From contig NZ_JACHJQ010000001.1 in NCBI RefSeq assembly GCF_014203735.1, positions 607,269-671,268 on the forward strand: a stretch of 64,000 bases of DNA, read 5' to 3'. The notes beneath the pieces were generated by a model, which saw only the letters and a program-made list of their open reading frames with translations, was not told where the DNA came from and searched no databases. The stretch comes from Actinophytocola algeriensis. GTDB lineage: Bacteria; Actinomycetota; Actinomycetes; Mycobacteriales; Pseudonocardiaceae. The position numbers and the translations under genes were made by a program. Of this stretch, positions 30,761 to 50,534 are shown piece by piece. Position 1 is the stretch's first letter, and the number at the start of each line of letters is the position of its first letter.

Positions 30761-32235
30761 CGACTGACGTCTCCCAGCTGAAACACTTACAGGGCAACGG
30801 GGTCCGCGCCCGGATCCAACGTTTCGGCGGCAACCTGGCCGGCATGATCATGCCCAACATCGGCGCGTTCATCGCGTGGGGCCTGATCACCGCGCTGTTC
30901 ATCCCGACCGGCTGGCTCCCGAACGCGACGCTCGCCGAACTGGTCGACCCGACGATCAAGTTCCTGCTGCCGATCCTCATCGGCTACACCGGCGGCCGCA
31001 TGGTCCACGGCCAGCGCGGCGCGGTGGTCGGCGCGATCGCCACCATGGGTGTGATCGTCGGCGCGGACGTGCCGATGTTCCTCGGCGCCATGATCATCGG
31101 CCCGCTCGCGGCACTGCTGATGAAGTGGTTCGACCGCGCGCTGGAAGGCAAGATCAAGTCCGGCTTCGAGATGCTGGTCAACAACTTCTCGGCGGGCATC
31201 CTCGGTGGTGCGATGGCACTGCTCGGCCTGGTCGGCATCGGCCCGATCGTCGAGGCGCTCACCAACGGGGCCAGCAACGTCGTCGACTTCCTCGTCGACA
31301 ACAGCCTGCTGCCGCTCGTGTCGATCGTCGTCGAGCCCGCGAAGGCGTTGTTCCTCAACAACGCCATCAACCACGGCGTGTTCGGCCCGCTGGGCCTGGA
31401 GCAGGCGCGGGAGACCGGCCAGTCGATCCTGTACATGATCGAGACCAACCCCGGCCCCGGACTCGGCATCCTGGTCGCGTTCTGGCTGTTCGGACCGCGC
31501 AAGACCCGGCCGACCGCCCCCGGCGCGATCATCATCCACTTCTTCGGCGGCATCCACGAGATCTACTTCCCGTACCTGCTGATGAAGCCGAAGCTGATCC
31601 TGGCCGCGATCGCCGGCGGCATGGCCGGTGTCGGCACCGCGCTGGTGACCAACTCCGGTCTCGTCGCACCGCCCGCGCCGGGCAGCATCTTCGCCTACAT
31701 GGCGGTCACGCCGCGCGGTGGTCACCTGAGCGTCCTGCTCAGCATCGCCGTCGCCACGGCCGTCTCGTTCATCGTCGCGGCGGTGCTGATGAAGTTCGGC
31801 CGCGGCGCAGACGCCGACGACACGTCGGCCCCGGATCCGTCGGCGGCCGCCGCCCCGGCCGCCGACGCCCCACCCCCGCTGGACGACGCCCCGGCTTCGG
31901 CACAGGGCAACGGAGCCACCACGACCCGGCCCGTCATCTCGGGCAGCGATGTCAAGAGCATCGTGGTCGCCTGCGACGCGGGCATGGGGTCCAGCGTGAT
32001 GCTGGCGTCCCAGATGCGGACCCGGCTCAAGCCGTACGGCGTGACCGTGGAACACGTCGCGGTCAACGACATCCCGGCCGGGGCGCGGCTCGTGCTCACG
32101 CACGCCGACCTCGCCGACCGGGCCCGCTCGACCGTGCCGCACGCGGTGGTCGTGGAGTTCCGGATGTTCCTGGGCGACCCGGCGTTCGACCGGCTGGAGA
32201 ACGCGATCAAGGAAGGCGGCGAGATCCGTGGCTGA
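30757..32235 (+). CDS. mtlA: PTS mannitol/hexitol-type EIICB permease
   Basis: The 492-aa protein has a membrane EIIC domain (about 1-345) close to MtlA: FGGNLAGMIMPNIGAFIAWGL, GGRMVHGQRGAVVGAI and the signature GGIHEIYFPYLLMKP. An Ala/Pro/Asp linker (about 350-390) leads to an EIIB domain with the phospho-cysteine in VACDAGMGSSVM. It imports and phosphorylates a hexitol. The EIIA is a separate gene (E. coli MtlA carries it fused). The symbol follows homology; the actual substrate could be another hexitol. Confidence 0.9.
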   Translation: MTTDVSQLKHLQGNGVRARIQRFGGNLAGMIMPNIGAFIAWGLITALFIPTGWLPNATLAELVDPTIKFLLPILIGYTGGRMVHGQRGAVVGAIATMGVIVGADVPMFLGAMIIGPLAALLMKWFDRALEGKIKSGFEMLVNNFSAGILGGAMALLGLVGIGPIVEALTNGASNVVDFLVDNSLLPLVSIVVEPAKALFLNNAINHGVFGPLGLEQARETGQSILYMIETNPGPGLGILVAFWLFGPRKTRPTAPGAIIIHFFGGIHEIYFPYLLMKPKLILAAIAGGMAGVGTALVTNSGLVAPPAPGSIFAYMAVTPRGGHLSVLLSIAVATAVSFIVAAVLMKFGRGADADDTSAPDPSAAAAPAADAPPPLDDAPASAQGNGATTTRPVISGSDVKSIVVACDAGMGSSVMLASQMRTRLKPYGVTVEHVAVNDIPAGARLVLTHADLADRARSTVPHAVVVEFRMFLGDPAFDRLENAIKEGGEIRG

Positions 32236-32674
32236 GTCGACGGTCCTCCCGAAGGAGGGCATCCGCCTCGGCCTGGCGGCCGCCGACAAGTGGGACGCGA
32301 TCCGCCAGTGCGGCGCCGTGCTCGTCGAGCTCGGCGCGGTCGAGGACGGCTACCCGGACACCATGCTGGAACGCGAGAAGTCCGTGTCGACGTTCATCGG
32401 CGAGGGCGTCGCGATCCCGCACGGCACCGACGAGAGCCGCGCACTGGTGCGCCGCACCACGCTCGGGGTGCTGCAGTTCCCCGGAGGGGTGGACTGGGAC
32501 GGCCAGACCGTCACGATCTGCGTCGCGATCGCCGCGAAGGGCGACGAGCACGTGACCGTGCTGTCGGCCCTCGCGCAGATCCTCATGGATCCCGCGCAGG
32601 CCGAGCAGCTGCGCGGCTCGGCGAGTGTCGACGCGGTCCACGACCTGCTCGCATCAATAGGGAAGGACCTGTAA
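32228..32674 (+). CDS. mtlF: PTS EIIA component, mannitol/fructose type
   Basis: The 148-aa protein matches the EIIA-Mtl/Fru fold (PF00359 type): KWDAIRQCGAVLVELGAV, MLEREKSVSTFIGEGVAIPHGT with the phosphorylated histidine in IPHGT, and the C-terminal LSALAQILMDP. It passes phosphate from HPr to the EIIB cysteine. The GTG start overlaps the end of the EIICB gene by 8 bases. Confidence 0.92.
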   Translation: MAESTVLPKEGIRLGLAAADKWDAIRQCGAVLVELGAVEDGYPDTMLEREKSVSTFIGEGVAIPHGTDESRALVRRTTLGVLQFPGGVDWDGQTVTICVAIAAKGDEHVTVLSALAQILMDPAQAEQLRGSASVDAVHDLLASIGKDL

Positions 32675-32677
32675 CCC

Positions 32678-33733
32678 ATGAAGGTGGCGCGTTTCTACGC
32701 CCCCGGTGACATCCGCCTCGAGGAGGCGCCCGAGCCGGACCCGGGCCCGGACGAGGTGAAGATCGCGGTGAAGCAGTGCTCGACCTGCGGCACCGACGTC
32801 AAGATCTTCAACCACGGCCACCACCACCTGGTGCCACCGCGCGTGATCGGCCACGAGATCGCCGGTGAGGTCGTCGAGGTCGGGTCGGACATTCCCGAAT
32901 CGAACGCAGGCGGCTGGGCCGCGGGCGACCGGGTACAGGTCATCGCGGCCGTCCCGTGCGGCCAGTGCGCCGAGTGCCGGGACGGCCGGATGCAGGTCTG
33001 TCCCAACCAGACCTCGGTCGGCTACCACTACGACGGCGGGTTCGCCGAGTACCTGATCGTGCCGAGGCAGGTGCTCGCGGTCGACGGGCTCAACCGGATC
33101 CCCGATGGCGTGGACTTCGCGGAGGCCTCGGTCGCCGAGCCGCTCGCGTGCGTGCTGAACGGGCAGGAGCTGGCGAAGGTCGGCCCCGGCGACGACGTGG
33201 TCGTGGTCGGCGCCGGGCCCATCGGCTGCCTGCACGTGCGGCTCGCGCGGGCCCGCGGCGCCAACCGGGTGTTCCTGGTGGAGCTGAACCGCGCGCGCCT
33301 GGACATGTCCGCGGCGAAGGTCAGGCCGGACGCGACGATCTGCTCGGCCGAGGTCGACGCGATCGACGAGGTGAAGAAGCTGACCGACGGGCGCGGTGTG
33401 GACGTCGTCATCACCGCGGCCGCCGCCGGTGCCGCGCAGGAGGACGCGCAGCACATGGCCGCCCGCAGCGGCCGGATCAGCTTCTTCGGCGGCCTGCCGA
33501 AGGACAAGCCGACGATCACGCTGGACTCCAACCTGGTGCACTACCGCGAGCTGACCATCGTGGGCGCCAACGGTTCCAGCCCCGCGCACAACAAGAAGGC
33601 GCTCGAGCTGATCGCGTCCGGCCAGGTGCCGGTCGCCGACCTGATCACGCACCGGCTCCGGTTGTCCGAGCTGCACGACGCCATCAAGCTGGTGTCGTCG
33701 GGTTCGGCGATCAAGGTGACCATCCAGCCGTAA
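32678..33733 (+). CDS. Zinc-dependent medium-chain dehydrogenase (polyol-phosphate type)
   Basis: The 351-aa protein has the MDR layout: catalytic-zinc Cys in CSTCGTD and the GHE motif, the structural zinc cysteines CGQCAECRDGRMQVC, and a Rossmann motif VVVGAGPIGC. It resembles sorbitol/threonine and galactitol-1-phosphate dehydrogenases rather than the classical MtlD family, which is absent here. In this operon it probably oxidises the incoming hexitol phosphate to a ketose phosphate for the PfkB kinase. The start is four bases after the EIIA stop. Confidence 0.88.
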   Translation: MKVARFYAPGDIRLEEAPEPDPGPDEVKIAVKQCSTCGTDVKIFNHGHHHLVPPRVIGHEIAGEVVEVGSDIPESNAGGWAAGDRVQVIAAVPCGQCAECRDGRMQVCPNQTSVGYHYDGGFAEYLIVPRQVLAVDGLNRIPDGVDFAEASVAEPLACVLNGQELAKVGPGDDVVVVGAGPIGCLHVRLARARGANRVFLVELNRARLDMSAAKVRPDATICSAEVDAIDEVKKLTDGRGVDVVITAAAAGAAQEDAQHMAARSGRISFFGGLPKDKPTITLDSNLVHYRELTIVGANGSSPAHNKKALELIASGQVPVADLITHRLRLSELHDAIKLVSSGSAIKVTIQP

Positions 33734-33762
33734 GTTCGGCAGGGCCCCGTCGAGGAGGACGC

Positions 33763-34029
33763 ATGCCCACGAGGGACGTTGTTGTCGGGTCACGGATCGG
33801 CCTGCACGGCAGGCCGGCGGCGACCGTCGTGAAGACCGCACAGGCCCAGTCGGTGACCGTGCGCATCGGCACCGGGGAGAAGCCACCGGTCGACGCGAGG
33901 AGCATCATCGCCGTGCTCTCGCTGGGCGCGCACGGCGGTGACACGGTCACCATCTCCGCGGACGGCGACGGTGCCGACGCCGCCCTCGCGGCGATGGCCG
34001 AGGTGCTGGAGAAGGATCTCGATGCCTGA
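33763..34029 (+). CDS. ptsH: Phosphocarrier protein HPr
   Basis: The 88-aa protein has the HPr active-site segment GLHGRPAATVV with the phospho-histidine, and the regulatory-serine region DARSIIAVLSLGA. It shuttles phosphate from EI to the EIIA. ATG 33763 follows a strong GAGGAGG site. The stop overlaps the EI start by 8 bases. Confidence 0.93.
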   Translation: MPTRDVVVGSRIGLHGRPAATVVKTAQAQSVTVRIGTGEKPPVDARSIIAVLSLGAHGGDTVTISADGDGADAALAAMAEVLEKDLDA

Positions 34030-35644
34030 GCTGCACGGGTTGGGCGTCAGCCCGGGACGCACGGCGGGCCCCGTCCACGCGATGGGTGCCCCGCCGGTCC
34101 TGCCTGCCGAGGTACCGGCCCCCGGCCCGGACGAGACGGAGCGGGCGGCGAAGGCACTCCAGTTCGTGGCCACGTCACTCGACGAACTGGCCGCGCGGGT
34201 CACCGGTCCCGCCGCGGAAGTCCTCGCCACACAAGCGATGATGGCCGCGGACATGACCCTGGCCGAGGCGGTCACCGCGAAGGTGGCCTACGGCAGGCCC
34301 GCGGCGTGGGCGATCACGGACGCCATCGCCGACCAGCAGCAACAGTTCGCTTCGCTGGGCGGGTACTTCGCCGAGCGGGCGGCGGACCTCGCCGACCTGC
34401 GGGACCGCGCGGTGGCATGGCTGCTCGACGTGCCGATGCCGGGCCTGCCGCGCCCAGGCGTCCCGTACGTCCTGGTGGCCGACGACCTGTCCCCGGCGGA
34501 CACCGCACTGCTGGACGACTCGGTCCTGGCGATCGTCACCCGTCGCGGCGGCCCGACGAGCCACACGGCGATCCTGGCGCGTGCCCGTGGCCTGCCCGCG
34601 GTGGTGGGCTGCGCCGGAATCCTCGACGTGCCGGACGGCACGCCGGTGTCGGTGGACGGCGTCACCGGCGCGGTGGCCGAGGTTTCCCCGGCACAGGCCG
34701 AGGAGATCGCCGCGGCCGGGCAGGAAGAACGCGAACGGAACGCGTCCCTGACCGGGCCGGGCCAGACCGCCGACGGTGTCGCGGTCCCGCTGCTGCAGAA
34801 CGTGGGCGGCGCGAAGGACCTGACGCCCGACGGTGCGGGTGTTGGCCTGTTCCGCACGGAGTTCCTGTTCCTGGGACGGACTTCCGCGCCTCCGGTCGCC
34901 GAGCAGGAGACGGCGTACCGGGAGCTGTTCGAGGTGGCGGGGGACCGCAAGGTGGTGCTGCGGACCCTGGACGCGGGTGCGGACAAACCGCTGCCGTTCC
35001 TCGGGCTGGCGGCGGAGGACAACCCGGCCCTCGGGGTGCGCGGGCTGCGCACGTCGCGCGTGGACCCGTCGGTGCTGGCCGAGCAGCTGGAGGCGGTGGC
35101 CCGCGCGGCCACCGCCACGTCGGCCGACGTGTGGGTGATGGCCCCCATGGTCGCCACGGCCGAGGAGGCCGCGGAGTTCGCCGCACTGGTGTACAAGGCG
35201 GGGCTGCGGACGGCCGGCGTGATGATCGAGGTGCCGGCCGCGGCGCTGAAGGCCCGGCAGATCCTGGCCGAAGTGGACTTCGTGTCCCTGGGCACCAACG
35301 ACCTGAGCCAGTACACGATGGCGGCGGACCGGATGAACGGCGAGCTGGCGGACCTGCTGGACCCGTGGCAGCCAGCGGTGCTGGAGCTGGTGGCGCTGGT
35401 CGCGTCGGCCGGGCAGGAACTGAGCAAGCCGGTGGGCGTGTGCGGCGAGTCGGCCGGGGATCCGTTGCTGGCGTGCGTGTACGCGGGCATGGGGATCACG
35501 ACGCTGTCGATGTCGGCGCCGTCCGTGGCCGCTGTCCGGGCGTCGCTGGCTTCGCGGACGTCGGCTGAGTGCCGCCGGCTGGCGGAGCTGGCGCTGGCGG
35601 CCCCGACCGCGGAGTCGGCCAGGAAGGCAGTAGCGGAGGCCTGA
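34022..35644 (+). CDS. ptsI: PTS enzyme I (phosphoenolpyruvate-protein phosphotransferase)
   Basis: The 540-aa protein starts MPELHGLGVSPGRTAGPVHA. It has the phospho-histidine motif GGPTSHTAILAR, the PEP-binding barrel (LLQNVGGAKD, GVGLFRTEFLFLGR) and the catalytic GVCGESAGDP near the C-terminus. It transfers phosphate from PEP to HPr and is the general energy-coupling PTS enzyme. Its presence in the operon makes the locus self-contained. Confidence 0.95.
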   Translation: MPELHGLGVSPGRTAGPVHAMGAPPVLPAEVPAPGPDETERAAKALQFVATSLDELAARVTGPAAEVLATQAMMAADMTLAEAVTAKVAYGRPAAWAITDAIADQQQQFASLGGYFAERAADLADLRDRAVAWLLDVPMPGLPRPGVPYVLVADDLSPADTALLDDSVLAIVTRRGGPTSHTAILARARGLPAVVGCAGILDVPDGTPVSVDGVTGAVAEVSPAQAEEIAAAGQEERERNASLTGPGQTADGVAVPLLQNVGGAKDLTPDGAGVGLFRTEFLFLGRTSAPPVAEQETAYRELFEVAGDRKVVLRTLDAGADKPLPFLGLAAEDNPALGVRGLRTSRVDPSVLAEQLEAVARAATATSADVWVMAPMVATAEEAAEFAALVYKAGLRTAGVMIEVPAAALKARQILAEVDFVSLGTNDLSQYTMAADRMNGELADLLDPWQPAVLELVALVASAGQELSKPVGVCGESAGDPLLACVYAGMGITTLSMSAPSVAAVRASLASRTSAECRRLAELALAAPTAESARKAVAEA

Positions 35645-36559: not shown

Positions 36560-36603
36560 ACCGGAACGCTGCTCCGCAACGATACGGAGCAACGTTCCGG
36601 TTC
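36560..36603. promoter_or_regulatory. TetR operator: 18-bp inverted repeat
   Basis: Arms 36560-36577 and 36586-36603 (AACCGGAACG...TGCTCCG) pair at 17 of 18 positions around an 8-base spacer. It lies between the LLM oxidoreductase and TetR starts, so one bound regulator could control both genes. Confidence 0.75.
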
Positions 36604-36617
36604 GCAAGGGAGGGTGC

Positions 36618-37160
36618 ATGCGGGCGGATGCGCGGCGCAACGAGAAGGCGCTGCTCGACGCGGCGGCCTCGGTGTTCGTCGCCTCGGGGGTCGACGCGCC
36701 GGTGCGGGCGATCGCGGCCGAGGCCGGCGTCGGCATGGGCACGATCTACCGCCACTTCCCGACCAGGGCGGACCTGGTCGTCGCGGTCTACCGGCACCAG
36801 GTCGAGGCCTGCGCCGAGGCCGGGCCCGCCCTGCTGGCCGAGAGCCCGTCCCCGCACGTCGCGCTCGGGAGGTGGATCGACCTGTTCGCCGACTTCCTCG
36901 TCACCAAGCACGGGCTGGCCGCCGCCCTGCGGTCCGACGAGGCCGGCTTCGAGACGCTCCACGCCTACTTCCTGGACCGCCTCGTGCCCGTGTGTGCCGA
37001 CCTGCTCGCGGCCGCGGCCGAGGCGGGTGACATCCGTGCGGGTCTTGACGCCTACGAGTTGATGCGAGGTGTCGGCAACCTCTGCATCGGAGCCGACCAC
37101 GACGACCGGTACGACGCGCGCAAGCTGGTCGGGTTCCTCGTCGCGGGGCTGCGGCCCTAG
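36618..37160 (+). CDS. TetR-family repressor
   Basis: The 180-aa protein has an N-terminal HTH: RNEKALLDAAASVFVASGVDAPVRAIAAEAGVGMGTIYRHFPTRADLV. The C-terminal ligand domain is of the common actinomycete SCO-type (about 85-180). ATG 36618 follows GGAGGG. It probably represses itself and the divergent oxidoreductase through the inverted repeat at 36560-36603. Confidence 0.92.
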   Translation: MRADARRNEKALLDAAASVFVASGVDAPVRAIAAEAGVGMGTIYRHFPTRADLVVAVYRHQVEACAEAGPALLAESPSPHVALGRWIDLFADFLVTKHGLAAALRSDEAGFETLHAYFLDRLVPVCADLLAAAAEAGDIRAGLDAYELMRGVGNLCIGADHDDRYDARKLVGFLVAGLRP

Positions 37161-37500
37161 TCGGACACGACGGTCAAAATTCGGTCACCGGGTGTACTAA
37201 CACCGGGGATCACCGTCCCCGTTCATGATCAACTGTCAAATACTGTCCGGCTCGTTACGCCATTTGGGCCTTAACTTTCGTCGACGATCGACATAAGTTC
37301 GAGTCGTTTAGTCGGAAGCGGCTATGTCCACGCCACCAGAGGGACGCCCGGAAAGCCACCCCGGGTCGAAAGGCGAGGCAGCGTGACAACGGACGTCACC
37401 CACGTGCCATCTGTGTGTCGCGCCGCGTCTCCACATCCCAGCAGCAACGCGAGCGGTCCGCGCGACCGCTCCTTCCCGTGCCCATGAACGGAGTTCCACA
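37161..37500. promoter_or_regulatory. Gene-free leader/promoter region of the laccase operon
   Basis: This 340-base stretch has no credible gene. It is A+T-richer than its surroundings at about 37170-37320, fitting a promoter and leader for the laccase gene. A small inverted repeat GGTGT...ACACC lies at 37191-37204 and an 8-bp GAGCGGTC stem lies near 37459-37480. I cannot fix the promoter. Confidence 0.35.
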
Positions 37501-38661
37501 ATGGACAGAGACGGCCGACCGGCGCTCTCGCGCCGATCGATGCTCGCCGGCGCCGCGGCAGCGGGTGTACTCGCCCCCGCCGTAGCGGCCAGCGGCGTCG
37601 CCGCGTTCTCCGCGGCGGCCGGGGCCGAGTCCGCGTCCGCGACCGCGGCAGCGGCAGGCCAGACCCGCCAGATCACCCTCTACGCCGAGCTGTTGCCCGG
37701 CACCAACCTGGTCGGCTACGCCCTTGAACCCGGCAAGCCGACGGTCCCCGGCCCCCTGCTGGAGATCTACGAGGGCGACACGCTGGAGATCGAGCTCGTC
37801 AACAACACCGACGAGCGGCTGTCGATCCACCCGCACGGCGTGAACTACGACACCAACTCGGACGGCGCGCCGTTCAACGGCTCGTTCAACAACCCCCGCG
37901 AGACCCGCGTCTACACCTGGCGCACCCGCACCACCTACCAGCGTGACGGTGTGTACATGCCGGGCAGTGCGGGCTTCTGGCACTACCACGACCACGCGAT
38001 GCGAGGCGACCACGGGACCATCGGGCTCATGCGCGGCCTGTACGGCGGGCTGATCGTCCGCAAGCGCGGCGACCTGCTGCCCGACCGGCAGTACACGGTC
38101 GTGTTCAACGAACAGACCATCAACAACAAGATCGCCCCGGACACCCCGATGTTCGAGGCGAACCAGGGTGAGCGCGTCGAGTGGATCTGCATCGGGCACG
38201 GGAACCTGCTGCACACCTTCCACCTGCACGCACACCGCTGGGCGGACACCCGCACCGGCATGCTGGCGAGCGCGAACGACAACACGCCGGTCCTCGACAA
38301 CAAGGACCTCAACCCCGGCGGCTCGTTCGGATTCCAGGTCATCGCCGGTGAGGGGGTGGGCCCGGGCGCGTGGATGTACCACTGCCACGTCCAGGGCCAC
38401 TCCGACTCCGGCATGTCGGGTGTCTTCCTGGTCCGCAACCCGGACGGCAGCATGCCGCCCGGCGCGCAGGAGGCGATCGACCGCTTCCACGGCCACGCGC
38501 ACACCTCGATGTCCGCGACGGAGATGAAGGCCATGGGCGCCGAACCCGTGCCCACGGGCCCGCACGACGGCATCGCGCCGATCGCGCCGGACAACCCGTC
38601 CGCCAAGAAGGCCAAGAAGAACCAGCCATCCACCAAGCCAACGCACGGCGGCCACAAGTAA
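37501..38661 (+). CDS. Two-domain (small) laccase, multicopper oxidase
   Basis: The 386-aa protein has a Tat signal (SRRSMLAG, residues 10-17, hydrophobic to about 40) and two cupredoxin domains. All copper motifs are intact: HPHG (H110, H112), HYHDH (H161, H163, H165), HTFHLH (H238, H241, H243) and HCHVQGHSDSGM (H294-M305, with C295 the type-1 cysteine). Such small laccases form trimers, oxidise phenols or other donors outside the cell and reduce O2. The C-terminus is Lys/His-rich. It heads a run of secreted redox genes and may accept electrons from the cupredoxin encoded downstream (inference). Confidence 0.93.
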   Translation: MDRDGRPALSRRSMLAGAAAAGVLAPAVAASGVAAFSAAAGAESASATAAAAGQTRQITLYAELLPGTNLVGYALEPGKPTVPGPLLEIYEGDTLEIELVNNTDERLSIHPHGVNYDTNSDGAPFNGSFNNPRETRVYTWRTRTTYQRDGVYMPGSAGFWHYHDHAMRGDHGTIGLMRGLYGGLIVRKRGDLLPDRQYTVVFNEQTINNKIAPDTPMFEANQGERVEWICIGHGNLLHTFHLHAHRWADTRTGMLASANDNTPVLDNKDLNPGGSFGFQVIAGEGVGPGAWMYHCHVQGHSDSGMSGVFLVRNPDGSMPPGAQEAIDRFHGHAHTSMSATEMKAMGAEPVPTGPHDGIAPIAPDNPSAKKAKKNQPSTKPTHGGHK

Positions 38662-38685
38662 GTGCAGAGAAAGGACAGCCCGACC

Positions 38686-41600
38686 ATGGGGCGAAGAAGC
38701 TCTATCGGCTGGTCGCGAAGGCGACGAGCCCGCGGATACACAGCGCTCGGTGCAGCGCTGGCTCTCGGTGCGTCGTTGATCAGCACAGTCGCGGCAGTAC
38801 CGGCACCTGCCGCGGCGGCAGCACCGGCGGCCACCGCACCGATCAACATCCTCGTGTTCCGCGGCGCCGCCGCGGCGCAGAAGGACCCGGTCGTCCGGGC
38901 CACGGACGCGATCACCAGCCTGGCGTCCGCGAGTGGCATCGGCGTGACCGCGTCGTCCGACCCCGCGGTGTTCAGCGCCGCGAACCTGGCCAAGTACCGC
39001 GGCGTCGTATACCTGTCGGCACAGGGCGTCGAGCTGAACAGCGGGCAGGAAGCCGCGCTGCAGCGCTACATGAAGGCAGGCGGCGGCTTCCTGGGCATCT
39101 CCGACGCGGCCCGCGCGCAGGAGAACTCCACCTGGTTCACCGGCCTCATCGGCGCTCGTCCGGCCGGCTCCCGGCTCGTCTCCGAGGTCACGGCCAGCGG
39201 TGAGAACGCGCCGAACGAGGGCAAGGACAAGCTGATCGACGGGGACCCGGCCACCAAGTGGCTGGCGTTCAGCCGCACGGCCTGGATCGCCTACAAGCTG
39301 GCCGCGCCCTTCGCGGTGTCGAGCTACTCGCTGACCTCGGCGAACGACTTCGACAACCGCGACCCGAAGAACTGGACGCTGCAGGGCTCCAACGACGGTA
39401 CGACGTGGGTCGATCTGGACACCCGCACCGACCAGGACTTCCCGCAGCGGTTCCAGAAGCGTGAGTTCACGTTCACCAACACCACGGCGTACGCGCACTA
39501 CCGGCTGAACATCACCGCGAACGCCGGTGAGACCGCCACGCAGCTCGCGGACTGGGACCTGGTCGCGGACGACTCGGAGCTCCCGCCGCCGCCGGAGCCC
39601 GCGGTGCAGGAGGCGACGATCGACGTCACCGACCGGCACCACCCGGCCAACGAGGGCCTCGGCATGACCTGGAACCGCACGGACCGCTTCCTCAACTGGG
39701 AGCAGAACCCGGTCGGCCAGGTGCACACGATCGCCCAGGTGCGGGAGAACACCTACACCCCGGGCACCGGCGCGAACGGCGCGTTCCACCCGATCTCGTG
39801 GTGCCGTGACTACGAGGGTGGCCGCTCCTTCTACACCGGCATGGGCCGCACCGAGGCGAGCTACGGCGAGGAGGCGTTCCGCAGCCACATCCTCGGCGCG
39901 CTGAAGTGGACCACCGGCATGGTGCGCGGTGACTGCAAGGCGACCATCGCGTCCAACTACAAGGTCGAGAAGCTGAACGCGAACAACGCGGCAGGCCAGC
40001 TCGACCAGATCGGCGAGCCGCACGGCCTGACGATCGCGCCGGACGGCAAGGTCTTCTACATCGGCCGTGGCGCGTGCGCCGACAACGTGGTGCCCCAGCC
40101 GAACGACTGGACCAACCCGGACATCGGCAAGGGCTGCGGCACGATCCACGTGTGGGACCCGGCGACGAAGAAGGCGAAGCTCGCCACCACCCTCGTCGTG
40201 ATGGGCAACCGCGGCAGCGGTGGCGAACTGGTCAAGAACGAGGAGGGACTGGTCGGCATCACGCTCGACCCGGCCTTCTCGGACAACGGCTGGGTCTACG
40301 CCTACTGGATGCCGCACGAGTCGATCGACCGCGACGCCCGGATCGGCAAGCGCACCGTCTCGCGCTTCACGTTCAACAAGACCACGTTGACGATCGACCA
40401 GGCGACCCGCAAGGACCTGCTGTCGTGGGACACGCAGATCCACAGCTGCTGCCACGTCGGTGGCGGCATGGCGTTCGACAAGGACGGCAACCTGTTCGTC
40501 TCCACCGGTGACAGCAACTCGTCGCAGGGCTCGAACGGGTACTCCGGCAACAACTGGACGCAGGAGTACAAGGGTGTGTCCTTCCAGGACGCTCGCCGCA
40601 CCTCGGGTAACACCAACGACCTGAACGGCAAGATCCTGCGGATCCACCCGGAGGCCGACGGCACCGCGTCGATCCCCGAGGGGAACCTGTTCCCCGAGGC
40701 GAACGACACCGCCAACAAGACGCGGCCCGAGATCTACGTGATGGGTGTCCGCAACCCGGCACGCCTGCAGGTCGACCCGGAGCACAACTGGGTGACCACC
40801 GCGTGGGTCGGTCCGGACGCGTCGTCGCCGAGCCCCGAGCTCGGCCCGGCGAAGTACGAGACCGCGACGATCATCACCGAGCCAGGCAACCACGGCTGGC
40901 CGTACTGCATGGGCAACAAGCAGCCGTACCGCGACCGCAGCAGCAGTGACGCGGCCGTCCTCACGGGCTGGTACGACTGCGACAACCCGATCAACACCTC
41001 GCCGCGCAACACGGGTCTGATCAACCTGCCGCCGGTGAAGAAGAACATGATCTGGTACTCGCCGGACGGTGGGGGCCCCATCTTCCCGAACCGCCCGAAC
41101 AGCAACATCCCGACCTACGTCGCCGCGGACGCGACCTACACCCAGCCCTACCTGCGTGGTGGCGGCCAGGCGGTCATGTCCGGTCCGACGTACCACTACG
41201 ACCGCGTCAACACCAACAGCGGTGTCGCGTGGCCGGAGTACTGGGATGACAAGTGGTTCATCGGGGACCAGTCCAACGCGCAGAACCGGATCGCCGTGAC
41301 GGTGGACCCGGCCGGTGTGCCGACGGCGCAGCCGCCGGTGTTCGCGGAGACGCTGCGGCAGATCATCCCGCCGGGTGGCGGTGACAACAAGCTGCAGAGC
41401 TGGATGGACGCCAAGTTCGGTCCGGACGGCGCGCTGTACATGATGGATTACGGCAGCGGCTTCTTCACCATCGCCGCGAACCAGAAGCTGATCAAGATCA
41501 GCTACATCGGTGGTGCCGCGACCCCGACGCCGGCGGCGTCGAACGTCGCGGTGCAGAACAAGCCGCTGACCTACTCGTTCAACGGCTCGAAGTCCGGCGG

Positions 41601-42678
41601 CGTCTCCTGGAAGTGGGAGTTCGGCGACGGCACCATCTCCACGGAGGCCAACCCGAAGCACACCTACACCCGCACGGGCCCGTACACCGCCAAGCTGACC
41701 ACGACCTACGCCGACGGCGAAGTGGTGGTCTCGCGGACCGCGGTGAACGTGGGCTGCTCGGTGTCGGACCCGACCACCACGGTCAAGTTCGGCCCCGGTG
41801 AGGATGCCGTCGACACCACGGTGAACAACAAGAACACCGGTGGCGGCTGCAAGATCGACGACCTGATCGACGACGAGAGCACGTGGCCGTCACACGCCGG
41901 CTTCGTGAACCACGTCCAGACAGTCGCGAAGAACCTCAAGCAGCTCGGCATCATCAACGCCGGCCAGCAGACCAAGCTGAACGACGCGGCCAAGGCCTCC
42001 GTCATCGGCAACCCGGGTCAGTACGGCTACGACGCGTTGTTCGACGGCACGGAGTCCTCGTTCGCCAACTGGTCGATGGCGCCGTCGGGTGACTTCTCGA
42101 TCCAGCCGGACGGGTCCCTGCGGCCCAGCGGTGGTCTCGGGATGCTGTGGTACAGCAAGAACTCCTTCAAGGACTTCTCGCTGAAGCTGCAGTTCAAGGA
42201 CATCGCACCGGAGGGCTTCCGGGCCAACACCGGCGTGTTCGTCCGCTTCCCGGATCTGCGCACGCCGTTGGAGCAGCGCCCGCCGGGCAGCTGTGGCACG
42301 GTCGGCGCCGCGCGGACCTCGCAGGCGTGGGTCGCGATCTACTGTGGACACGAGATCCAGATCTACGACGGCGAGACCGGTGAACCGCAGAAGACCGGGT
42401 CGGTCTACAACTTCGACCCGAACTCCCTCGCAGGAGCCGGTGCCACGCCGAAGAACCAGTGGAACGACTACGAGATCAAGGTTGTCGGCCAGCACTACAC
42501 GATCATCCGCAACGGCGTGGTGATCAACGAGTTCGAGAACGCACCGGGGCAGGAGTCCTCCCGCGCCGGTGACCCGAACACGACGCTGCGCCAGTTCGCG
42601 GAGGGCTTCATCGGCCTCCAGAACCACGGCAACAACGACCTCGCCGAGTTCCGCAACGTCCGGGTGCGGCCCCTGTAG
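38686..42678 (+). CDS. Secreted ThuA/discoidin/PQQ-type sugar dehydrogenase/PKD/DUF1080 protein
   Basis: The frame opens at GTG 38662, but ATG 38686 is preferred, preceded by AAAGGA and opening an Arg-rich signal peptide. The 1330 aa contain: ThuA part 1 (about 46-160), a discoidin-like domain (about 165-305) inserted in it, ThuA part 2 (309-420, HPISWCRDYEGGRSFYTGMG), a glucose/sorbosone dehydrogenase propeller (about 425-940, GEPHGLTIAPDGKVFYI), a PKD domain (about 950-1023), a Cys-bounded helical module (1024-1105) and a DUF1080 3-keto-disaccharide hydrolase-like domain (1112-1330). It probably oxidises or processes sugars outside the cell with PQQ-type chemistry. The helical module recurs at the end of the next protein. 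Confidence 0.88.
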   Translation: MGRRSSIGWSRRRRARGYTALGAALALGASLISTVAAVPAPAAAAAPAATAPINILVFRGAAAAQKDPVVRATDAITSLASASGIGVTASSDPAVFSAANLAKYRGVVYLSAQGVELNSGQEAALQRYMKAGGGFLGISDAARAQENSTWFTGLIGARPAGSRLVSEVTASGENAPNEGKDKLIDGDPATKWLAFSRTAWIAYKLAAPFAVSSYSLTSANDFDNRDPKNWTLQGSNDGTTWVDLDTRTDQDFPQRFQKREFTFTNTTAYAHYRLNITANAGETATQLADWDLVADDSELPPPPEPAVQEATIDVTDRHHPANEGLGMTWNRTDRFLNWEQNPVGQVHTIAQVRENTYTPGTGANGAFHPISWCRDYEGGRSFYTGMGRTEASYGEEAFRSHILGALKWTTGMVRGDCKATIASNYKVEKLNANNAAGQLDQIGEPHGLTIAPDGKVFYIGRGACADNVVPQPNDWTNPDIGKGCGTIHVWDPATKKAKLATTLVVMGNRGSGGELVKNEEGLVGITLDPAFSDNGWVYAYWMPHESIDRDARIGKRTVSRFTFNKTTLTIDQATRKDLLSWDTQIHSCCHVGGGMAFDKDGNLFVSTGDSNSSQGSNGYSGNNWTQEYKGVSFQDARRTSGNTNDLNGKILRIHPEADGTASIPEGNLFPEANDTANKTRPEIYVMGVRNPARLQVDPEHNWVTTAWVGPDASSPSPELGPAKYETATIITEPGNHGWPYCMGNKQPYRDRSSSDAAVLTGWYDCDNPINTSPRNTGLINLPPVKKNMIWYSPDGGGPIFPNRPNSNIPTYVAADATYTQPYLRGGGQAVMSGPTYHYDRVNTNSGVAWPEYWDDKWFIGDQSNAQNRIAVTVDPAGVPTAQPPVFAETLRQIIPPGGGDNKLQSWMDAKFGPDGALYMMDYGSGFFTIAANQKLIKISYIGGAATPTPAASNVAVQNKPLTYSFNGSKSGGVSWKWEFGDGTISTEANPKHTYTRTGPYTAKLTTTYADGEVVVSRTAVNVGCSVSDPTTTVKFGPGEDAVDTTVNNKNTGGGCKIDDLIDDESTWPSHAGFVNHVQTVAKNLKQLGIINAGQQTKLNDAAKASVIGNPGQYGYDALFDGTESSFANWSMAPSGDFSIQPDGSLRPSGGLGMLWYSKNSFKDFSLKLQFKDIAPEGFRANTGVFVRFPDLRTPLEQRPPGSCGTVGAARTSQAWVAIYCGHEIQIYDGETGEPQKTGSVYNFDPNSLAGAGATPKNQWNDYEIKVVGQHYTIIRNGVVINEFENAPGQESSRAGDPNTTLRQFAEGFIGLQNHGNNDLAEFRNVRVRPL

Positions 42679-42685
42679 CCGGATC

Positions 42686-42720
42686 GGCCGGGCGGCGCGC
42701 GCACGTGGCGCCGCCCGGCC
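42686..42720 (+). terminator. Intra-operon hairpin between sugar dehydrogenase and cupredoxin genes
   Basis: A perfect 13-bp G+C stem (42686-42698 with 42708-42720) and 9-base loop lie between the two stops/starts. It could attenuate transcription into the cupredoxin gene or protect the upstream mRNA end. Confidence 0.6.
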
Positions 42721-42744
42721 GCCCCTCTTGGAGGACTTTCTGAC

Positions 42745-44886
42745 ATGTCCCGACGCTTCATCGCCGCGTTAGGCGCGGCGGTGGCCGTTCTCGGGCTGGT
42801 GGCGCTCCCCGCGTCCGCCTCCCGGGCAGCGGAACCACCGCCCGTCACCGCGGCCGCAGCAGCACAGACACTCACGTGGACCGCGGACGAGAACCAGAAC
42901 GCGTACACGTCCGCACCGACCACCGCGGTCGCCGGCGAGACCACGATCATCTTCGAGAACAGCGAGGCGACCGGCAACGAGGTCGGCATGTCGCACACGC
43001 TGACGTTCGATACGTCCACGCCGGGCTACAACCACGACGTGTCGCTGAACATCACGGCCAACCCGTTCGACGCCAACAACGGCCGCCACGAGGCGACCGT
43101 GACGCTGGCGCCGGGCAAGTACCGCTACTTCTGCACAGTCCCCGGCCACAGCACGATGGCCGGTGAGTTCACCGTGGAGGGCGGCGGCGGGGACACCACC
43201 GCGCCGACGGTGACCGCCACGATCACCGGTACGCAGGACACGAACGGCAACTACGTCGACCAGGCGACCATCAACCTGGCCGCCACCGACAACACCGGCG
43301 GTTCCGGTGTCGCGTCCACCGAGTACAAGCTGGACAGTGGCGCGTGGACCCCCTACACCGCACCCGTTGCGGTGTCGGCGGTCGGCGCCCACACCGTCGC
43401 CTACCGCGCCACCGACGTGGCGGGCAACGTGTCCACGGAGGGCTCGAAGACCTTCACCGTCGTCGAAGGTGGCGGCGGTGAGGACACCACGCCGCCGACC
43501 GTCGACGCGACGGTCACCGGCAACCAGGACGGCGACGGCAACTTCGTCGAGTCCGCCACGGTGACGGTCACCGCCACCGACAACGAGGGCGGCTCCGGCG
43601 TGGCGACCACCGAGTACAAGCTGGACGACGCCGCGTGGGCGCCGTACACCCAGCCTGTGCTGGTCTCCGTGCTGGGCGCGCACACCGTGGCCTACCGGGC
43701 GACGGACGAGGCGGGCAACGCCTCCACGGAGGGCTCGAAGCAGTTCACCGTGGTGGCCGACTCGTCCGACACCACGGCGCCGACGGTCGACGCCGAGGTC
43801 TCCGGCACGCAGGACGACGAGGGCAACTACGTCGACGTCGCCACCGTGACCGTCTCCGCACAGGACGCCGAGTCCGGTGTCGCGTCGGTGGAGTACAAGG
43901 TGGACGATGGCGCGTGGACCGCGTACTCGACGCCGGTCGCGGTGAACACGCCCGGCATGCACATGGTGGGCTACCGCGCCACCGACGTGGCGGGCAACGT
44001 CTCCGAGGAGGGCATGGCCCACTTCACGGTGGTCACGCAGGACACGACCGCGCCGGAAGTGACCGGGCAGGTAGTCGGTCAGCAGGACGAGAACGGCGCC
44101 TACATCGGCTCCGCCATGGTGACGGTCTCCGCGACCGACAACGAGGGCGGTTCGGGTGTCGCGTCGGTCGAGTACAAGCTGGACGACGCCGAGTGGGCGC
44201 CGTACACCGAGGCCGTGCAGGTCTCGGCGGCCGGCGAGCACACGGTCCTGTTCCGCGCGACGGACGGGGCGGGCAACGTGTCGACGGAAGGCTCGGAGAC
44301 GTTCACCGTGGTGGCAGGCGAGGTCGACGAGACCCCGCCGTCGGTGTCCGCGGTGGTGAGCGGCACCCAGAACTCGAGCTGGCAGTTCCTCGACGCGGCG
44401 AACATCGGCATCTCCGCGCTGGACACCGGTTCGGGGGTCGGCTCCGTCGAGTACAAACTGGACGGTGGGGCCTGGACCGAGTACTCGGAGCCGGTGGTCG
44501 TGAACACGGCGGGCACGCACAACTTCGCCTACCGCGCGACGGACCTGGCCGGCAACACGTCGGCCGAGCTGACGGGTTCGTTCACGATCGTCGAGTCCGG
44601 CCCCGCGCCGGGCCCGGACGTGTGCCCGGACTCGGATGTCCGCGACACCGTCATCATCGGTGACATCGACAGCCAGGTGGCGAACATCGACACCGGCAAC
44701 GGCTGCACGATCAACGACGTCATCGACGAAGACGGTCAGTGGAACACCCACAACCAGTTCGTCCGGCACGTCAAGGCAGTGACGAGGGAACTGGTGCAGA
44801 ACGGCGTCATCACCGGCGCCCTGCGCGATCGAATCGTGACCGCGGCCGTCAACTCGACCGTGGGCACCCCGACGTCGCGAGTCTGA
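42745..44886 (+). CDS. Secreted cupredoxin with five Ig-like/OmpL47-type repeats
   Basis: ATG 42745 follows GGAGG. The 713-aa protein has a signal peptide (1-28) and a plastocyanin-like domain (about 40-145) with candidate type-1 copper ligands H84, C130, H135 and M138 (FCTVPGHSTM). Five repeats of about 90-97 aa follow, each opening TTAPTV-like and ending YRATDVAGNVSTEGSK-like, as in OmpL47-type beta-sandwich arrays. The last 75 residues match a module at the end of the sugar dehydrogenase protein. It may carry electrons between the dehydrogenase and the laccase; binding partners are inferred. Confidence 0.9.
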   Translation: MSRRFIAALGAAVAVLGLVALPASASRAAEPPPVTAAAAAQTLTWTADENQNAYTSAPTTAVAGETTIIFENSEATGNEVGMSHTLTFDTSTPGYNHDVSLNITANPFDANNGRHEATVTLAPGKYRYFCTVPGHSTMAGEFTVEGGGGDTTAPTVTATITGTQDTNGNYVDQATINLAATDNTGGSGVASTEYKLDSGAWTPYTAPVAVSAVGAHTVAYRATDVAGNVSTEGSKTFTVVEGGGGEDTTPPTVDATVTGNQDGDGNFVESATVTVTATDNEGGSGVATTEYKLDDAAWAPYTQPVLVSVLGAHTVAYRATDEAGNASTEGSKQFTVVADSSDTTAPTVDAEVSGTQDDEGNYVDVATVTVSAQDAESGVASVEYKVDDGAWTAYSTPVAVNTPGMHMVGYRATDVAGNVSEEGMAHFTVVTQDTTAPEVTGQVVGQQDENGAYIGSAMVTVSATDNEGGSGVASVEYKLDDAEWAPYTEAVQVSAAGEHTVLFRATDGAGNVSTEGSETFTVVAGEVDETPPSVSAVVSGTQNSSWQFLDAANIGISALDTGSGVGSVEYKLDGGAWTEYSEPVVVNTAGTHNFAYRATDLAGNTSAELTGSFTIVESGPAPGPDVCPDSDVRDTVIIGDIDSQVANIDTGNGCTINDVIDEDGQWNTHNQFVRHVKAVTRELVQNGVITGALRDRIVTAAVNSTVGTPTSRV

Positions 44887-44902
44887 CTCGCGCGTCGGCA
44901 GG

Positions 44903-44943
44903 AGAGCCTCCCCGGGCGGTCACCGCCTGCCCGGGGAGGCTCT
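44903..44943 (+). terminator. Rho-independent terminator of the laccase operon
   Basis: A perfect 15-bp stem (44903-44917 with 44929-44943) is followed by TTTGTATT. It lies between convergent genes and can also serve the minus-strand sigma operon. Confidence 0.88.
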
Positions 44944-44964
44944 TTGTATTGGTGGGCCGGGGAG

Positions 44965-48027: not shown

Positions 48028-49266
48028 TCAGCTCAGGCGAACGGGCAGCGCGGCCGCCGAGTTGGAGAAGAACGACGGCACCGGTACCAGTTCCTCCGGC
48101 TTCGCCGCCAGCGACAGCTCCGGGTACCGCGCGAACAACGCGGGCAGTGCCACGTTGGCCTCCAGCCGCGCGAGGTGGGCGCCGAGGCAGACGTGCGGTC
48201 CGCCGCCGAAGGCGAGGTGTCTGGTCGGCGGCCGGGTGATGTCGAACTCGTCCGCCGTCTGGCCGTGGTGTGCCGAGTCCCGCCCGACACCGCTGTACGG
48301 CGCGAGGATCGCCTCGCCTCTGGGGATGGGCACACCCGCGATCTCGATGTCCTCCAACGGGTACCGGGCCGGGAAGTTGCCGATCGGTGCGTCCCAGCGC
48401 AGGGTTTCCTCGACGACCGCGTGCCAGGTGGCCGCGTCGCCGTTCATCGCCAGCTCCAGCTGCGACGGGTGTGTCAGCAGCGCCCGCACGCCGTTGACGA
48501 TCAGGCTCAGCGTGGTCTCGTGGCCCGCCGTGAGGAACAGCCAGATCGTGTCGATCAGCTCTTCCTTCGTCAGCGTCTCCTCGCCCTGCTCACCGAGTTC
48601 GATGAGGGCGGAGGTGAGGTCGTTGCCGCGTTCCTCGCGGCGCAGGTCCACGAGCCGGTTGAGCAGGTCGTGCCGTTCGCGCTGGGTGGCGACGACCTCT
48701 TCTGGTGTCACGTTCGTGAGGAAGATGCTCTCCACGAGCTCCCGCAGGCGCTGCCGCCACTCGACGGGCACCGCGAACAGCTCGCAGATCATGTTCATCG
48801 GCACCGGGTACGCGAAGTGCTGCCGCAGATCGACGACACCGTCCGGGGAAGCGTGCGACGGCAGTGCGTCCAGCAGCCCGTTCACGTTCTCCTCCAGGCG
48901 CGGGCGGAGGTCTTCCACCCGGCCGCGGGTGAACGTGCGGGTCACGGGACGGCGGAGCCGCTGGTGCGTGTCGCCGTCCGAGGTCACCATGTTCGTGACC
49001 TTGATCATCCCGACGAGTGGCCACTCGTCGGTGATCTCGCCGCTCTGGATCCTGCTCCAGTTGCGCCAGTCCTTGCTGACCAACGGGTTCGTGACGAGCT
49101 GCGCGAGCAGTTCGTGGGTGGTGACGGCCCACACCGCCACGTCGCCGGGAAGGATGACTCGTACGACCGGACCGAGCTCCCGCATCCGCGCCGCTTCCCC
49201 GTGGTGGTCGGTACCCATGGGGTCGAGGTGGATGGTCGGGACGTCGGCGGTGACCGAGTCGGTCAT
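48028..49266 (-). CDS. Cytochrome P450, conservon-associated (CYP154-like)
   Basis: The 412-aa protein has all P450 landmarks: I-helix AGHETT, K-helix ETLR (ExxR intact) and the heme loop FGGGPHVCLGAHLAR. The PIGNFPARYPLEDIEIAG segment and the GRDSAHHGQTADEFDITR region resemble CYP154 enzymes. The start has AGGAGG seven bases upstream and lies 17 bases after the stop of the other P450. It probably oxidises a small hydrophobic substrate, with redox partners encoded elsewhere. The P450 subfamily is a guess from motifs. Confidence 0.92.
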   Translation of the reverse strand: MTDSVTADVPTIHLDPMGTDHHGEAARMRELGPVVRVILPGDVAVWAVTTHELLAQLVTNPLVSKDWRNWSRIQSGEITDEWPLVGMIKVTNMVTSDGDTHQRLRRPVTRTFTRGRVEDLRPRLEENVNGLLDALPSHASPDGVVDLRQHFAYPVPMNMICELFAVPVEWRQRLRELVESIFLTNVTPEEVVATQRERHDLLNRLVDLRREERGNDLTSALIELGEQGEETLTKEELIDTIWLFLTAGHETTLSLIVNGVRALLTHPSQLELAMNGDAATWHAVVEETLRWDAPIGNFPARYPLEDIEIAGVPIPRGEAILAPYSGVGRDSAHHGQTADEFDITRPPTRHLAFGGGPHVCLGAHLARLEANVALPALFARYPELSLAAKPEELVPVPSFFSNSAAALPVRLS

Positions 49267-49283
49267 CAGAATGCCTCCTGCGC

Positions 49284-50534
49284 CTAGGAGTTTCGTGTTG
49301 GCGGAGTGAAGCGAACCGGCAGGCTGGCGGGGCAGCGTGTCCAGGGTGAGGGCAGCAACATGACCTCGTCGGCCGGAATCGCCAACGAAACATCATGTAG
49401 CCGGTGCAGAGCGGTGTCGACCGCTATCCGTGTGATCATTCTCCCCGGCCGCTGCGCGGGACAGGCGTGCGGACCGGCGCTCCACGCGAGGTGCGAGCGG
49501 TTGCCGACCTCCAGCCACGAGTCGTCGGTGTGCACGCGCGGGTCGTTGTTCGCCGCCGAGAGGCCCAGGATCAGCGCGTCGCCGCGCTGGATGTGCGCAC
49601 CGGCCAGCTCGCAGTCCACGAGCGCGTACCTGGCGGGCATGTTCGACATCGGCGGGTCGCGCCACAGCACCTCGTCGAGCGCGTCGTCGATGCCGAGGCG
49701 ACCACCGCGCATCCGGCCCGCGAACCGGGGGTCGGTGAGCATCAGCCGCAGCGTCTGCGCGATCCACGACGTCGTGGTCTCGTAGCCGGCGGAGATCATC
49801 AGCACGATCGACTGCTGGATCTCGAAGTCGTTGTGCAGGTTGGGGTGCCGCAGGAACGCGGTGGTCAGGTCGTCGGTGGGGACGTTGCGGCGGGCGTTCA
49901 TCGTGCCCGACAGGATCCGCTCCAGGTTGTGCGCCGCGGGCTGCGAGTCCTCCGCGGAGGAGAACAGCGCGATGAGCGCGGCCCGCAGCTCGTGGCCCTG
50001 CTCGCGGCCGATGCCGAAGAACCCGGCAACGGTCAGCATCGGCACCACGGCGGCGTAGTCGGACACGAGGTCCGCCTTGCCCTGCAGCTCGAACTCTCTG
50101 ATCAGGTCGGTGCAGGTGGCGCGGATGAACCGGGCCATGCGGTGCTCGTCGAGGCTCTCCAGGCCGTCGTCGAGCGGGCCGCGCAGCCGCCGGTGCTTCT
50201 CGCCGTCGGCGAAGTAGGCGTTGTCGCGCGGGAACATCATCGGGCCGAGACCCGAGTCCGGCGCCACCACCCCGTCGGTGAACAGCCGCCAGTTGTTGGG
50301 GTCGCGGGAGAACAGCTGCTCGTTGCGCACCACCTGGCAGATCTCGTGGTGCCCCATGACGAGCCACGCCGGGATGCCCGGCTCCAGCTCGACCGGCGCC
50401 ACCGCGCCCCAGCGTTCCTGCAGCTCCCGGTACGCGACCTGCGGATCGGGCGCCGCCGTCGTCTCGATGAGCGGAGTCAGGCCGGCCATGTCCGACAGCC
50501 GCCGCCGGTGCCGTGAACTTGCTGATGTCGTCAC
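49284..50534 (-). CDS. Cytochrome P450 with non-canonical K-helix (CYP157-like)
   Basis: The GTG start at 50534 overlaps the GTPase stop (GTGA). The 416-aa protein has I-helix AGYETT and a heme region LAWSAGPHACPAQRPGR with Cys358. Two features are odd: the K-helix motif is E288-V-L-W291 in place of ExxR, and Cys358 is followed by Pro-Ala rather than Leu/Ile-Gly. CYP157 proteins of Streptomyces, also found beside conservons, are known to lack ExxR, so this is likely a family trait rather than a broken gene. Whether it is catalytic or structural is open. Confidence 0.88.
   Translation of the reverse strand: MTTSASSRHRRRLSDMAGLTPLIETTAAPDPQVAYRELQERWGAVAPVELEPGIPAWLVMGHHEICQVVRNEQLFSRDPNNWRLFTDGVVAPDSGLGPMMFPRDNAYFADGEKHRRLRGPLDDGLESLDEHRMARFIRATCTDLIREFELQGKADLVSDYAAVVPMLTVAGFFGIGREQGHELRAALIALFSSAEDSQPAAHNLERILSGTMNARRNVPTDDLTTAFLRHPNLHNDFEIQQSIVLMISAGYETTTSWIAQTLRLMLTDPRFAGRMRGGRLGIDDALDEVLWRDPPMSNMPARYALVDCELAGAHIQRGDALILGLSAANNDPRVHTDDSWLEVGNRSHLAWSAGPHACPAQRPGRMITRIAVDTALHRLHDVSLAIPADEVMLLPSPWTRCPASLPVRFTPPTRNS

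Follow-up and report, generated by a model that had tools for sequence, protein, structure and literature searches.

A conserved laccase, ThuA-GSDH and cupredoxin gene trio in Actinomycetes and its possible role in extracellular saccharide oxidation

We analysed a 64,000-nucleotide stretch of the Actinophytocola algeriensis genome (hereafter the window; the genome comprises 9.73 Mb in 23 contigs) and identified in it three genes that almost certainly form one functional unit: a two-domain laccase gene, a gene for a multidomain protein of 1330 amino acids (aa) with a ThuA domain and a glucose/sorbosone dehydrogenase (GSDH)-like beta-propeller, and a gene for a 713-aa cupredoxin protein. Together they would encode one secreted, copper-dependent, saccharide-acting system, conserved across several Actinomycetes orders, in which electrons pass from a saccharide through the 1330-aa protein and the cupredoxin to the laccase and O2; we give this whole electron-flow reading a probability of about 0.5. 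An earlier note, made from the letters of the window, had described three consecutive same-strand open reading frames (ORFs), and a check of the ORFs located all three on the forward strand, as follows:

37501-38661, + strand: two-domain (SLAC-type) laccase, 386 aa (Pfam, PDB match, copper ligands)
38686-42678, + strand: ThuA / F5/8C / GSDH-like propeller / PKD / C-module / 3-keto-disaccharide hydrolase protein, 1330 aa (Pfam; orthologue alignment)
42745-44886, + strand: cupredoxin / OmpL47-repeat protein, 713 aa (Pfam, NF047446)

The reading of the 1330-aa protein begins at the ATG at 38686, with a GTG at 38662 as the alternative start in the ORF list. Judged by eye, the 1330-aa and 713-aa proteins have signal-like N-termini, and the laccase starts with what we take, by eye and from recall of the motif, to be a twin-arginine-like (Tat) signal; from these N-termini we infer that the trio proteins are secreted.

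The three genes are found together in the same genomes. Among 60 genomes of the family, including the window's own, a long orthologue of the 1330-aa protein (>1200 bits), the laccase (E 1e-40) and the cupredoxin (E 1e-10) are each present in 17, and the three lists of genomes are identical. If genomes were independent, two identical sets of 17 out of 60 would arise with a chance of 2.6e-15, a figure that shared ancestry makes overstated. In 15 of the 16 other family loci, the laccase, 1330-aa and cupredoxin genes follow one another in that order on one strand. Conserved linkage in relatives had been chosen beforehand as the point on which the proposal could fail; it was found, and more strongly than had been proposed, in the same 17 of 60 genomes and with the same gene order in 15 of the 16 loci. 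Eleven further family genomes contain other ThuA-GSDH or partial matches (E 1e-50) without a laccase or cupredoxin at the thresholds used; therefore, ThuA-GSDH proteins are not generally tied to the laccase.

A similar distribution is seen in 197 genomes of the class, where the laccase occurs in 32, the cupredoxin in the same 32 (weakly in G123, E 8e-14, and G138, E 2e-13), and the 1330-aa protein (E 1e-150, in a search that scored few candidates per genome) in 31 of those. In the exception, G075, the cupredoxin gene lies 100 bases from a contig end, beside two laccase copies (locus L143); because it adjoins the contig end, the 1330-aa gene of this genome may be lost to assembly. Among 20 class regions, 17 contain all three genes, L143 contains the laccase and cupredoxin, and L139 and L142 contain a lone second laccase; the laccase is divergent in 16 of the 18 class loci counted. 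Tandem duplicated two-domain laccases adjoin the partner genes in L140, L141, L143, and L146.

We also examined the best 80 of 459 named relatives of the 1330-aa protein; some of these loci belong to the same genomes as the family loci (e.g., L040 and G015), so the sets are not additive. The nearest by this protein among these 80 are from Amycolatopsis and Actinophytocola, and the genera represented include Amycolatopsis, Micromonospora, Actinoplanes, Kribbella, Rhodococcus, Sphaerisporangium, and Streptomyces. The laccase was found at all 80 loci (with 44% identity in L101 and L112, and 45% in L102) and the cupredoxin at 79. Laccase, 1330-aa, and cupredoxin genes are in this order on one strand at 72 loci; the cupredoxin gene precedes the laccase and 1330-aa genes at three, the cupredoxin gene is divergent at two, the laccase gene is downstream at one and divergent at one, and one locus is without cupredoxin, so there are five arrangements in which all three genes are present. 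A chance neighbourhood was rejected on co-occurrence and linkage.

The laccase matches both Pfam Cu-oxidase_2 and Cu-oxidase_3 over the family cut-offs, and its best PDB match is the small laccase 3t9w (E 9.4e-122), with many two-domain laccases ranking after it. All 12 copper ligand positions are filled (H110, H112, H163, H165, H238, H241, H243, H294, C295, H296, H300, and M305), the residues having been paired by motif, without a numbered alignment, with the twelve SLAC ligand residues listed in an excerpt of a mutational study (PMC3918160). The families, the structure match and the ligand positions thus agree with the earlier description of a two-domain laccase with all copper ligands. Enzymological work on the small laccases of Streptomyces and its relatives goes back about two decades, and the physiological substrate of these laccases is unsettled.

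The 1330-aa protein contains the following domains, in addition to the propeller that had been recognized before:

38842-39135, + strand: ThuA, N-terminal half, residues ~53-150 (PF06283; boundary from the orthologue alignment)
39187-39525, + strand: F5/8 type C (discoidin) domain inserted in ThuA, residues 168-280 (PF00754)
39595-39912, + strand: ThuA, C-terminal half, residues 304-409 (PF06283)
39934-41520, + strand: GSDH-like beta-propeller, residues 417-945 (PF07995, AlphaFold model, Foldseek)
41521-41727, + strand: PKD domain, residues 946-1014 (PF18911)
41746-42024, + strand: C-module copy 1, no family name (likeness to copy 2)
42028-42669, + strand: 3-keto-disaccharide hydrolase (DUF1080), residues 1115-1328 (PF06439, E 1.5e-32)

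Pfam finds ThuA (E 2.5e-51) in two stretches, GSDH (E 3.4e-21), PKD and F5/8C, and the 3-keto-disaccharide hydrolase domain (hereafter the 3-keto domain) is over its cut-off. Twelve aligned orthologues share 62-75% identity with the protein, and the one in L032 has a gap where the F5/8C domain sits. The GSDH propeller claimed in the earlier note is therefore present by Pfam, but the ThuA, C-module, and 3-keto domains had been overlooked. A plain aldose dehydrogenase is too narrow an identity for a protein with this multi-domain Pfam content; its ThuA and 3-keto domains, together with the shared C-module, suggest that it works on glycosides and is not a simple oxidiser of aldoses.

The AlphaFold model of the propeller (residues 417-945) has a mean predicted local distance difference test (pLDDT) score of 81 and a predicted template modelling score of 0.89, and its Foldseek matches include the soluble glucose dehydrogenase (sGDH) 5min (E 8e-19), 2ism (template modelling score, TM, of 0.82 by target), and 3das. 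H590, R689-N690, and the vicinal pair C588-C589 are invariant in a 13-row alignment that includes the window, and also in a 32-row alignment; we equate H590 and R689-N690 with the catalytic residues of sGDH. A GP motif is also kept, as in soluble sugar dehydrogenases dependent on pyrroloquinoline quinone (PQQ). The C588-C589 pair (window 40447-40452), directly before the catalytic-type histidine and present in two of three aligned ThuA-GSDH paralogues, deserves attention because a vicinal disulfide lies over PQQ in methanol dehydrogenase. In the window's own genome (G000) GSDH gives 25 matches, of which several lie in very long frames, and there is a large ThuA-GSDH set; OmpL47-like sequence is present too in the two GSDH loci inspected, L033 and L034.

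The 713-aa protein consists of three parts:

42850-43185, + strand: cupredoxin domain, ligands H84, C130, H135, and M138 (alignments, predicted fold)
43192-44604, + strand: OmpL47-type Ig-like repeats, five stretches, outer bounds approximate (NF047446, E 1.8e-117)
44611-44883, + strand: C-module copy 2, no family name (likeness to copy 1)

Its plastocyanin-like N-terminal domain scores 21.1 bits against Pfam Copper-bind, for a cut-off of 21.2. All four ligands are kept in each of 10 aligned proteins, and the same type-1 copper columns are invariant in 26 of 26 aligned cupredoxin domains, window included in both. In the cupredoxin model, 102 of 190 residues have a pLDDT of at least 90, and the repeat part is poor. 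Its lowest Foldseek E values are to three-domain copper nitrite reductases (1.4e-5, with a poor superposition at a root-mean-square deviation of ~13), followed by plastocyanins (TM by target ~0.5-0.6) and then two-domain laccases. A cupredoxin with a type-1 copper motif, as previously proposed, is thus supported by the fold and the four invariant ligands, but it is part of a 713-aa multi-domain protein and not a plain cupredoxin.

The two C-module copies, one at the C-terminus of this chain and one in the 1330-aa protein, are 38% identical (E 1e-18), and a search of the 9.73-Mb genome at E 0.01 found these two, one per chain, and no third. The module matched no Pfam family up to E 1, and because of this a FIMAH-like identity was dropped.

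The position of the 3-keto domain differs among loci. On a Streptomyces fungicidicus plasmid, the annotation lists in a row a divergent multicopper oxidase, a ThuA domain-containing protein, and a family 16 glycoside hydrolase; this ThuA protein contains ThuA-GSDH only, and the "family 16 glycoside hydrolase" is made up of cupredoxin, Ig-like repeats, C-module, and 3-keto domain. The domain is likewise on the cupredoxin chain in all 11 of the f20 loci (by tblastn position), is a separate gene within the locus in L032, and follows the propeller in all 80 named loci, including that of Streptomyces sp. CB01373 (L114); Streptomyces therefore holds both types of placement. As read from these domain orders, the swapping of the 3-keto domain between the partner chains is good evidence that both chains serve one process.

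We propose that the 1330-aa protein would be the saccharide side of the system, binding a glycoside or polysaccharide, with the GSDH-like propeller taking electrons from the sugar by means of PQQ or another cofactor, and the 3-keto domain, possibly with ThuA, cleaving the oxidised product. The dedicated cupredoxin, which may be kept nearby through the C-module common to both chains, would accept the electrons and deliver them at the type-1 copper of the laccase, and the laccase would reduce O2 to water. Electron flow in this direction, a catalytic propeller, the nature of its cofactor, and docking by the C-module are all predictions from sequence. Xylose-isomerase-like or Gfo/Idh/MocA relatives, found in 22 of 114 loci, suggest 3-keto-glycoside chemistry together with the ThuA and 3-keto domains. 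The sampled class genomes rarely have the laccase without the same two partners, which gives a direct handle on its function. More tentatively, and with the odds somewhat against it, the natural donor of Actinomycete small laccases might be a dedicated cupredoxin and not a phenol, with the laccase as terminal oxidase of a respiration-like chain and the ThuA/GSDH/3-keto-hydrolase protein cleaving glycosides oxidatively with a cofactor other than classical PQQ. If the proposal is true, Gram-positive bacteria would have an O2-linked route of extracellular sugar oxidation relevant to lignocellulose breakdown, and a joint role would be explained for the widespread ThuA, OmpL47 repeat, and 3-keto domains.

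Several observations weigh against this electron-flow reading. In the Foldseek search the propeller also matches the hedgehog-interacting protein (HHIP), which we take to be a non-enzyme, and an R-x-R pair before the last GPDG motif, presumably the PQQ-carboxylate arginines of sGDH, is absent from the window protein, the Streptomyces protein, and all three ThuA-GSDH paralogues, while it is present in all four aligned PDB proteins and all four canonical GSDHs of the same genome (four rows that had no ORF were left out of this alignment). The ThuA and 3-keto domains could have a binding role only, and 92 of the 114 loci, as well as the window, lack the xylose-isomerase-like and MocA genes. Two genomes with the set or part of it, G087 (L139) and G075 (L142), have a lone second laccase; L090 has no cupredoxin match at 45 bits; and remote two-domain laccases would escape the search made for the laccase at E 1e-40. 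In G024, the 16th family locus, the 1330-aa and cupredoxin genes are together and the laccase is ~443 kb off on the same contig, the only de-linked case; gain and loss as a block would also give co-occurrence, and the genomes share ancestry, with positives in 8 of the 91 genera sampled from the class and in 13 of the 46 sampled from the family. PqqC and PqqE over the cut-off are both missing from the same seven of 17 family genomes that carry the trio. Finally, direct oxidation of phenols is established for small laccases, SLAC among them, in an excerpt of PMC3918160. This last point leads to the main rival explanation, in which the laccase oxidises phenolic or lignin-like substrates, as such enzymes usually do, and its partners have a non-redox or accessory part: plant or cell-wall polysaccharide would be bound by the propeller, ThuA, F5/8C, OmpL47, and 3-keto domains, which would position the laccase, and the cupredoxin would store or deliver copper or relay electrons from bulky substrates. 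Such an arrangement agrees with a propeller that lacks the R-x-R pair and shares its fold with HHIP, and with the many domains of binding type. However, the H590 and R689-N690 residues that are invariant in 13 and 32 rows are compatible with a catalytic centre that has been kept, all 80 named loci have the 3-keto domain after the propeller, and four type-1 ligands without exception in 26 domains suggest electron transfer over storage; on balance we regard this explanation as rather improbable.

A PQQ-specific form of the electron-flow reading, which is not an additional explanation, would have a PQQ-dependent dehydrogenase pass electrons through PQQH2 to the cupredoxin and the laccase. The GSDH fold with its catalytic-type His and Arg-Asn is in keeping with this form, and PQQ use is possible in the window's own genome because PqqC and PqqE are both encoded there, over the cut-off and side by side (G000:C5); in addition, some bacteria import PQQ that they have not made themselves. 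It is nevertheless unlikely, given the missing R-x-R pair and the distribution of the biosynthesis genes: PqqC is over the cut-off in 36 of 60 family genomes, 10 of 17 carriers of the trio vs 26 of 43 non-carriers (Fisher p 1.0), and PqqE also in 36 of 60, including the same 10 carriers; two of the seven PqqC-less carriers, G035 and G058, have weak PqqC matches below the cut-off. A coupling to PQQ through gene co-occurrence was dropped, PqqC being no commoner in carriers than in non-carriers, and PQQ as a general requirement of the trio is doubtful, as gene content does not support it. The "PQQ-type sugar dehydrogenase" of the earlier note therefore keeps its GSDH fold, but the absent R-x-R pair, the fold shared with HHIP, and the lack of a link between PqqC and the trio speak against the PQQ part of the name. 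Less probable again is a copper-handling locus, with the laccase as a cuprous oxidase, the cupredoxin as a copper buffer, induction by copper, and the large protein incidental. SLAC is SCO6712 (in an excerpt of PMC3918160), and SCO6710, two gene numbers away, has a label that fits the Streptomyces cupredoxin/3-keto gene; from label and numbering alone we infer that it is this gene. This speaks for copper handling, but SCO6710 went down, not up, in Wt80Cu cultures of S. coelicolor, in the excerpted data. Moreover, the 10 window neighbours include no copper exporter or chaperone by Pfam, an exact CsoR-like palindrome (taken by us as TACCC-N3-8-GGGTA) is missing from all 81 laccase upstream regions, that of the window among them, and copper handling leaves the ThuA-GSDH and 3-keto domains unexplained. 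It is very improbable that the genes have no shared function and were transferred as a block that chance or selfish-operon dynamics keep together: gain and loss of a block alone would yield co-occurrence, but five arrangements are found, the de-linked genome keeps its laccase, the placement of the 3-keto domain varies, and the two chains share a private module.

Compared with known systems, the window laccase is like the two-domain laccases SLAC, EpoA, and Ssl1 in sequence, domains, and copper ligands; excerpts of the literature treat these as stand-alone phenol oxidases, whereas the window laccase has two dedicated partners. Similarly, the propeller resembles sGDH, Asd/YliI, and 3das of S. 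coelicolor in fold, catalytic-type His, Arg-Asn, and GP motif, but differs from them in lacking the R-x-R pair, in the vicinal Cys pair before the His, in its fusion to ThuA, PKD, and 3-keto domains, and in that gene content does not link it with PQQ biosynthesis. Three-domain copper nitrite reductases and multicopper oxidases (6tfd, 9cck), which both match the cupredoxin model, have a cupredoxin beside a two-domain copper oxidase core; the window cupredoxin is instead a separate protein with Ig-like repeats, and its acceptor would be an O2-using laccase. The closest precedent in structure for a cupredoxin that would feed such a core is given by nitrite reductases to which a cupredoxin is tethered. 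In Pseudomonas putida HK5, a PQQ alcohol dehydrogenase passes electrons to azurin outside the membrane; the quinoprotein-to-cupredoxin transfer is alike, but that chain ends in the respiratory chain and not in a secreted laccase. The LacABC + DUF1080 and BT2157 pathways have DUF1080 in common with the trio, some loci of which add xylose-isomerase-like and Gfo/Idh/MocA genes, and an excerpt of PMC9007349 proposes that DUF1080 proteins act with lactose 3-dehydrogenase in Caulobacter; unlike the LacABC + DUF1080 system, the trio contains no LacABC-like or flavin oxidase domain by Pfam, and its oxidation would end on O2 via copper proteins. A search of the open-licence literature, judged by titles and the starts of abstracts, found no description of the laccase/ThuA-GSDH/cupredoxin set and no paper that joins a ThuA domain, laccase, and Streptomyces; five papers that combine two of ThuA, multicopper oxidase, and OmpL47 were listed, none of which describes the set on this basis, and an excerpt of a paper on laccase SilA mutants (PMC5675413) names no neighbour gene. 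As far as these listings go, the trio has not been described as a single system, as the earlier note had supposed.

We also looked at candidate regulatory elements around the three genes:

37273-37299, no strand: 27-bp inverted repeat AACTT-N2-GTCGA-N3-TCGAC-N2-AAGTT, candidate operator/promoter element (perfect repeat)
42685-42721, + strand: intergenic hairpin between the 1330-aa and cupredoxin genes, without a T tract (-41.2 kcal/mol for a 57-nt stretch, z -3.1)
44902-44944, + strand: terminator-like hairpin ending the run, with a short T tract (z -5.1)

The 27-bp repeat is a single site in its own genome at up to two mismatches, and a related repeat (at least 15 of 20 positions) occurs in 30 of 96 relatives' loci, in 29 of them upstream of the laccase. 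Within 800 nt upstream of the laccase core, it was found in 29 of 95 regions vs 0 of 95 in each of five dinucleotide shuffles; in these counts some loci are the same genome twice, and close relatives share sites by descent. The hairpin between the second and third genes, which is very stable and had gone unmentioned in the earlier note, perhaps sets the ratio of the 1330-aa and 713-aa proteins, and the one at ~44902-44944 agrees with the earlier claim that the run ends in a terminator, although its T tract is short. A TetR/SbtR-like regulator gene lies upstream of the laccase (36618-37160), with an inverted repeat, seen by eye, directly upstream of it at 36560-36601, perhaps the regulator's own operator. 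The regulator gene has a 76% match at another place in L084, remote matches in L097 and L076, and no match in the 16 family loci by tblastn.

The other genes around the trio are mostly not kept. Window neighbours that start between 30 and 50 kb had no match in the 16 family loci (crude gene call, E 1e-8, half of the shorter protein), and tblastn of ten window neighbours against the 114 loci gave broadly the same picture, apart from Actinophytocola oryzae (L053). Upstream of the trio is a phosphotransferase system sugar operon (window 28978-35641, + strand) of a DeoR regulator, PfkB kinase, EIIC/IIB, EIIA, zinc alcohol dehydrogenase, and EI. All six genes are kept in L053 at 78-91% identity and have no match in the 16 family loci by tblastn; beyond L053, five alcohol dehydrogenase matches alone were found, at 31-33% among the matches listed. 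Background synteny is thus seen in the nearest relative, L053, and elsewhere the trio stands largely on its own. Downstream, two adjacent genes (window 48028-50837, - strand) are probably a P450 pair, because they match each other (29% identity) and Pfam identifies the first as a cytochrome P450. The P450 neighbour is matched in eight loci, one of them a family locus, with 80-82% identity in L053 and L043 and ~34% in two further loci among the matches listed.

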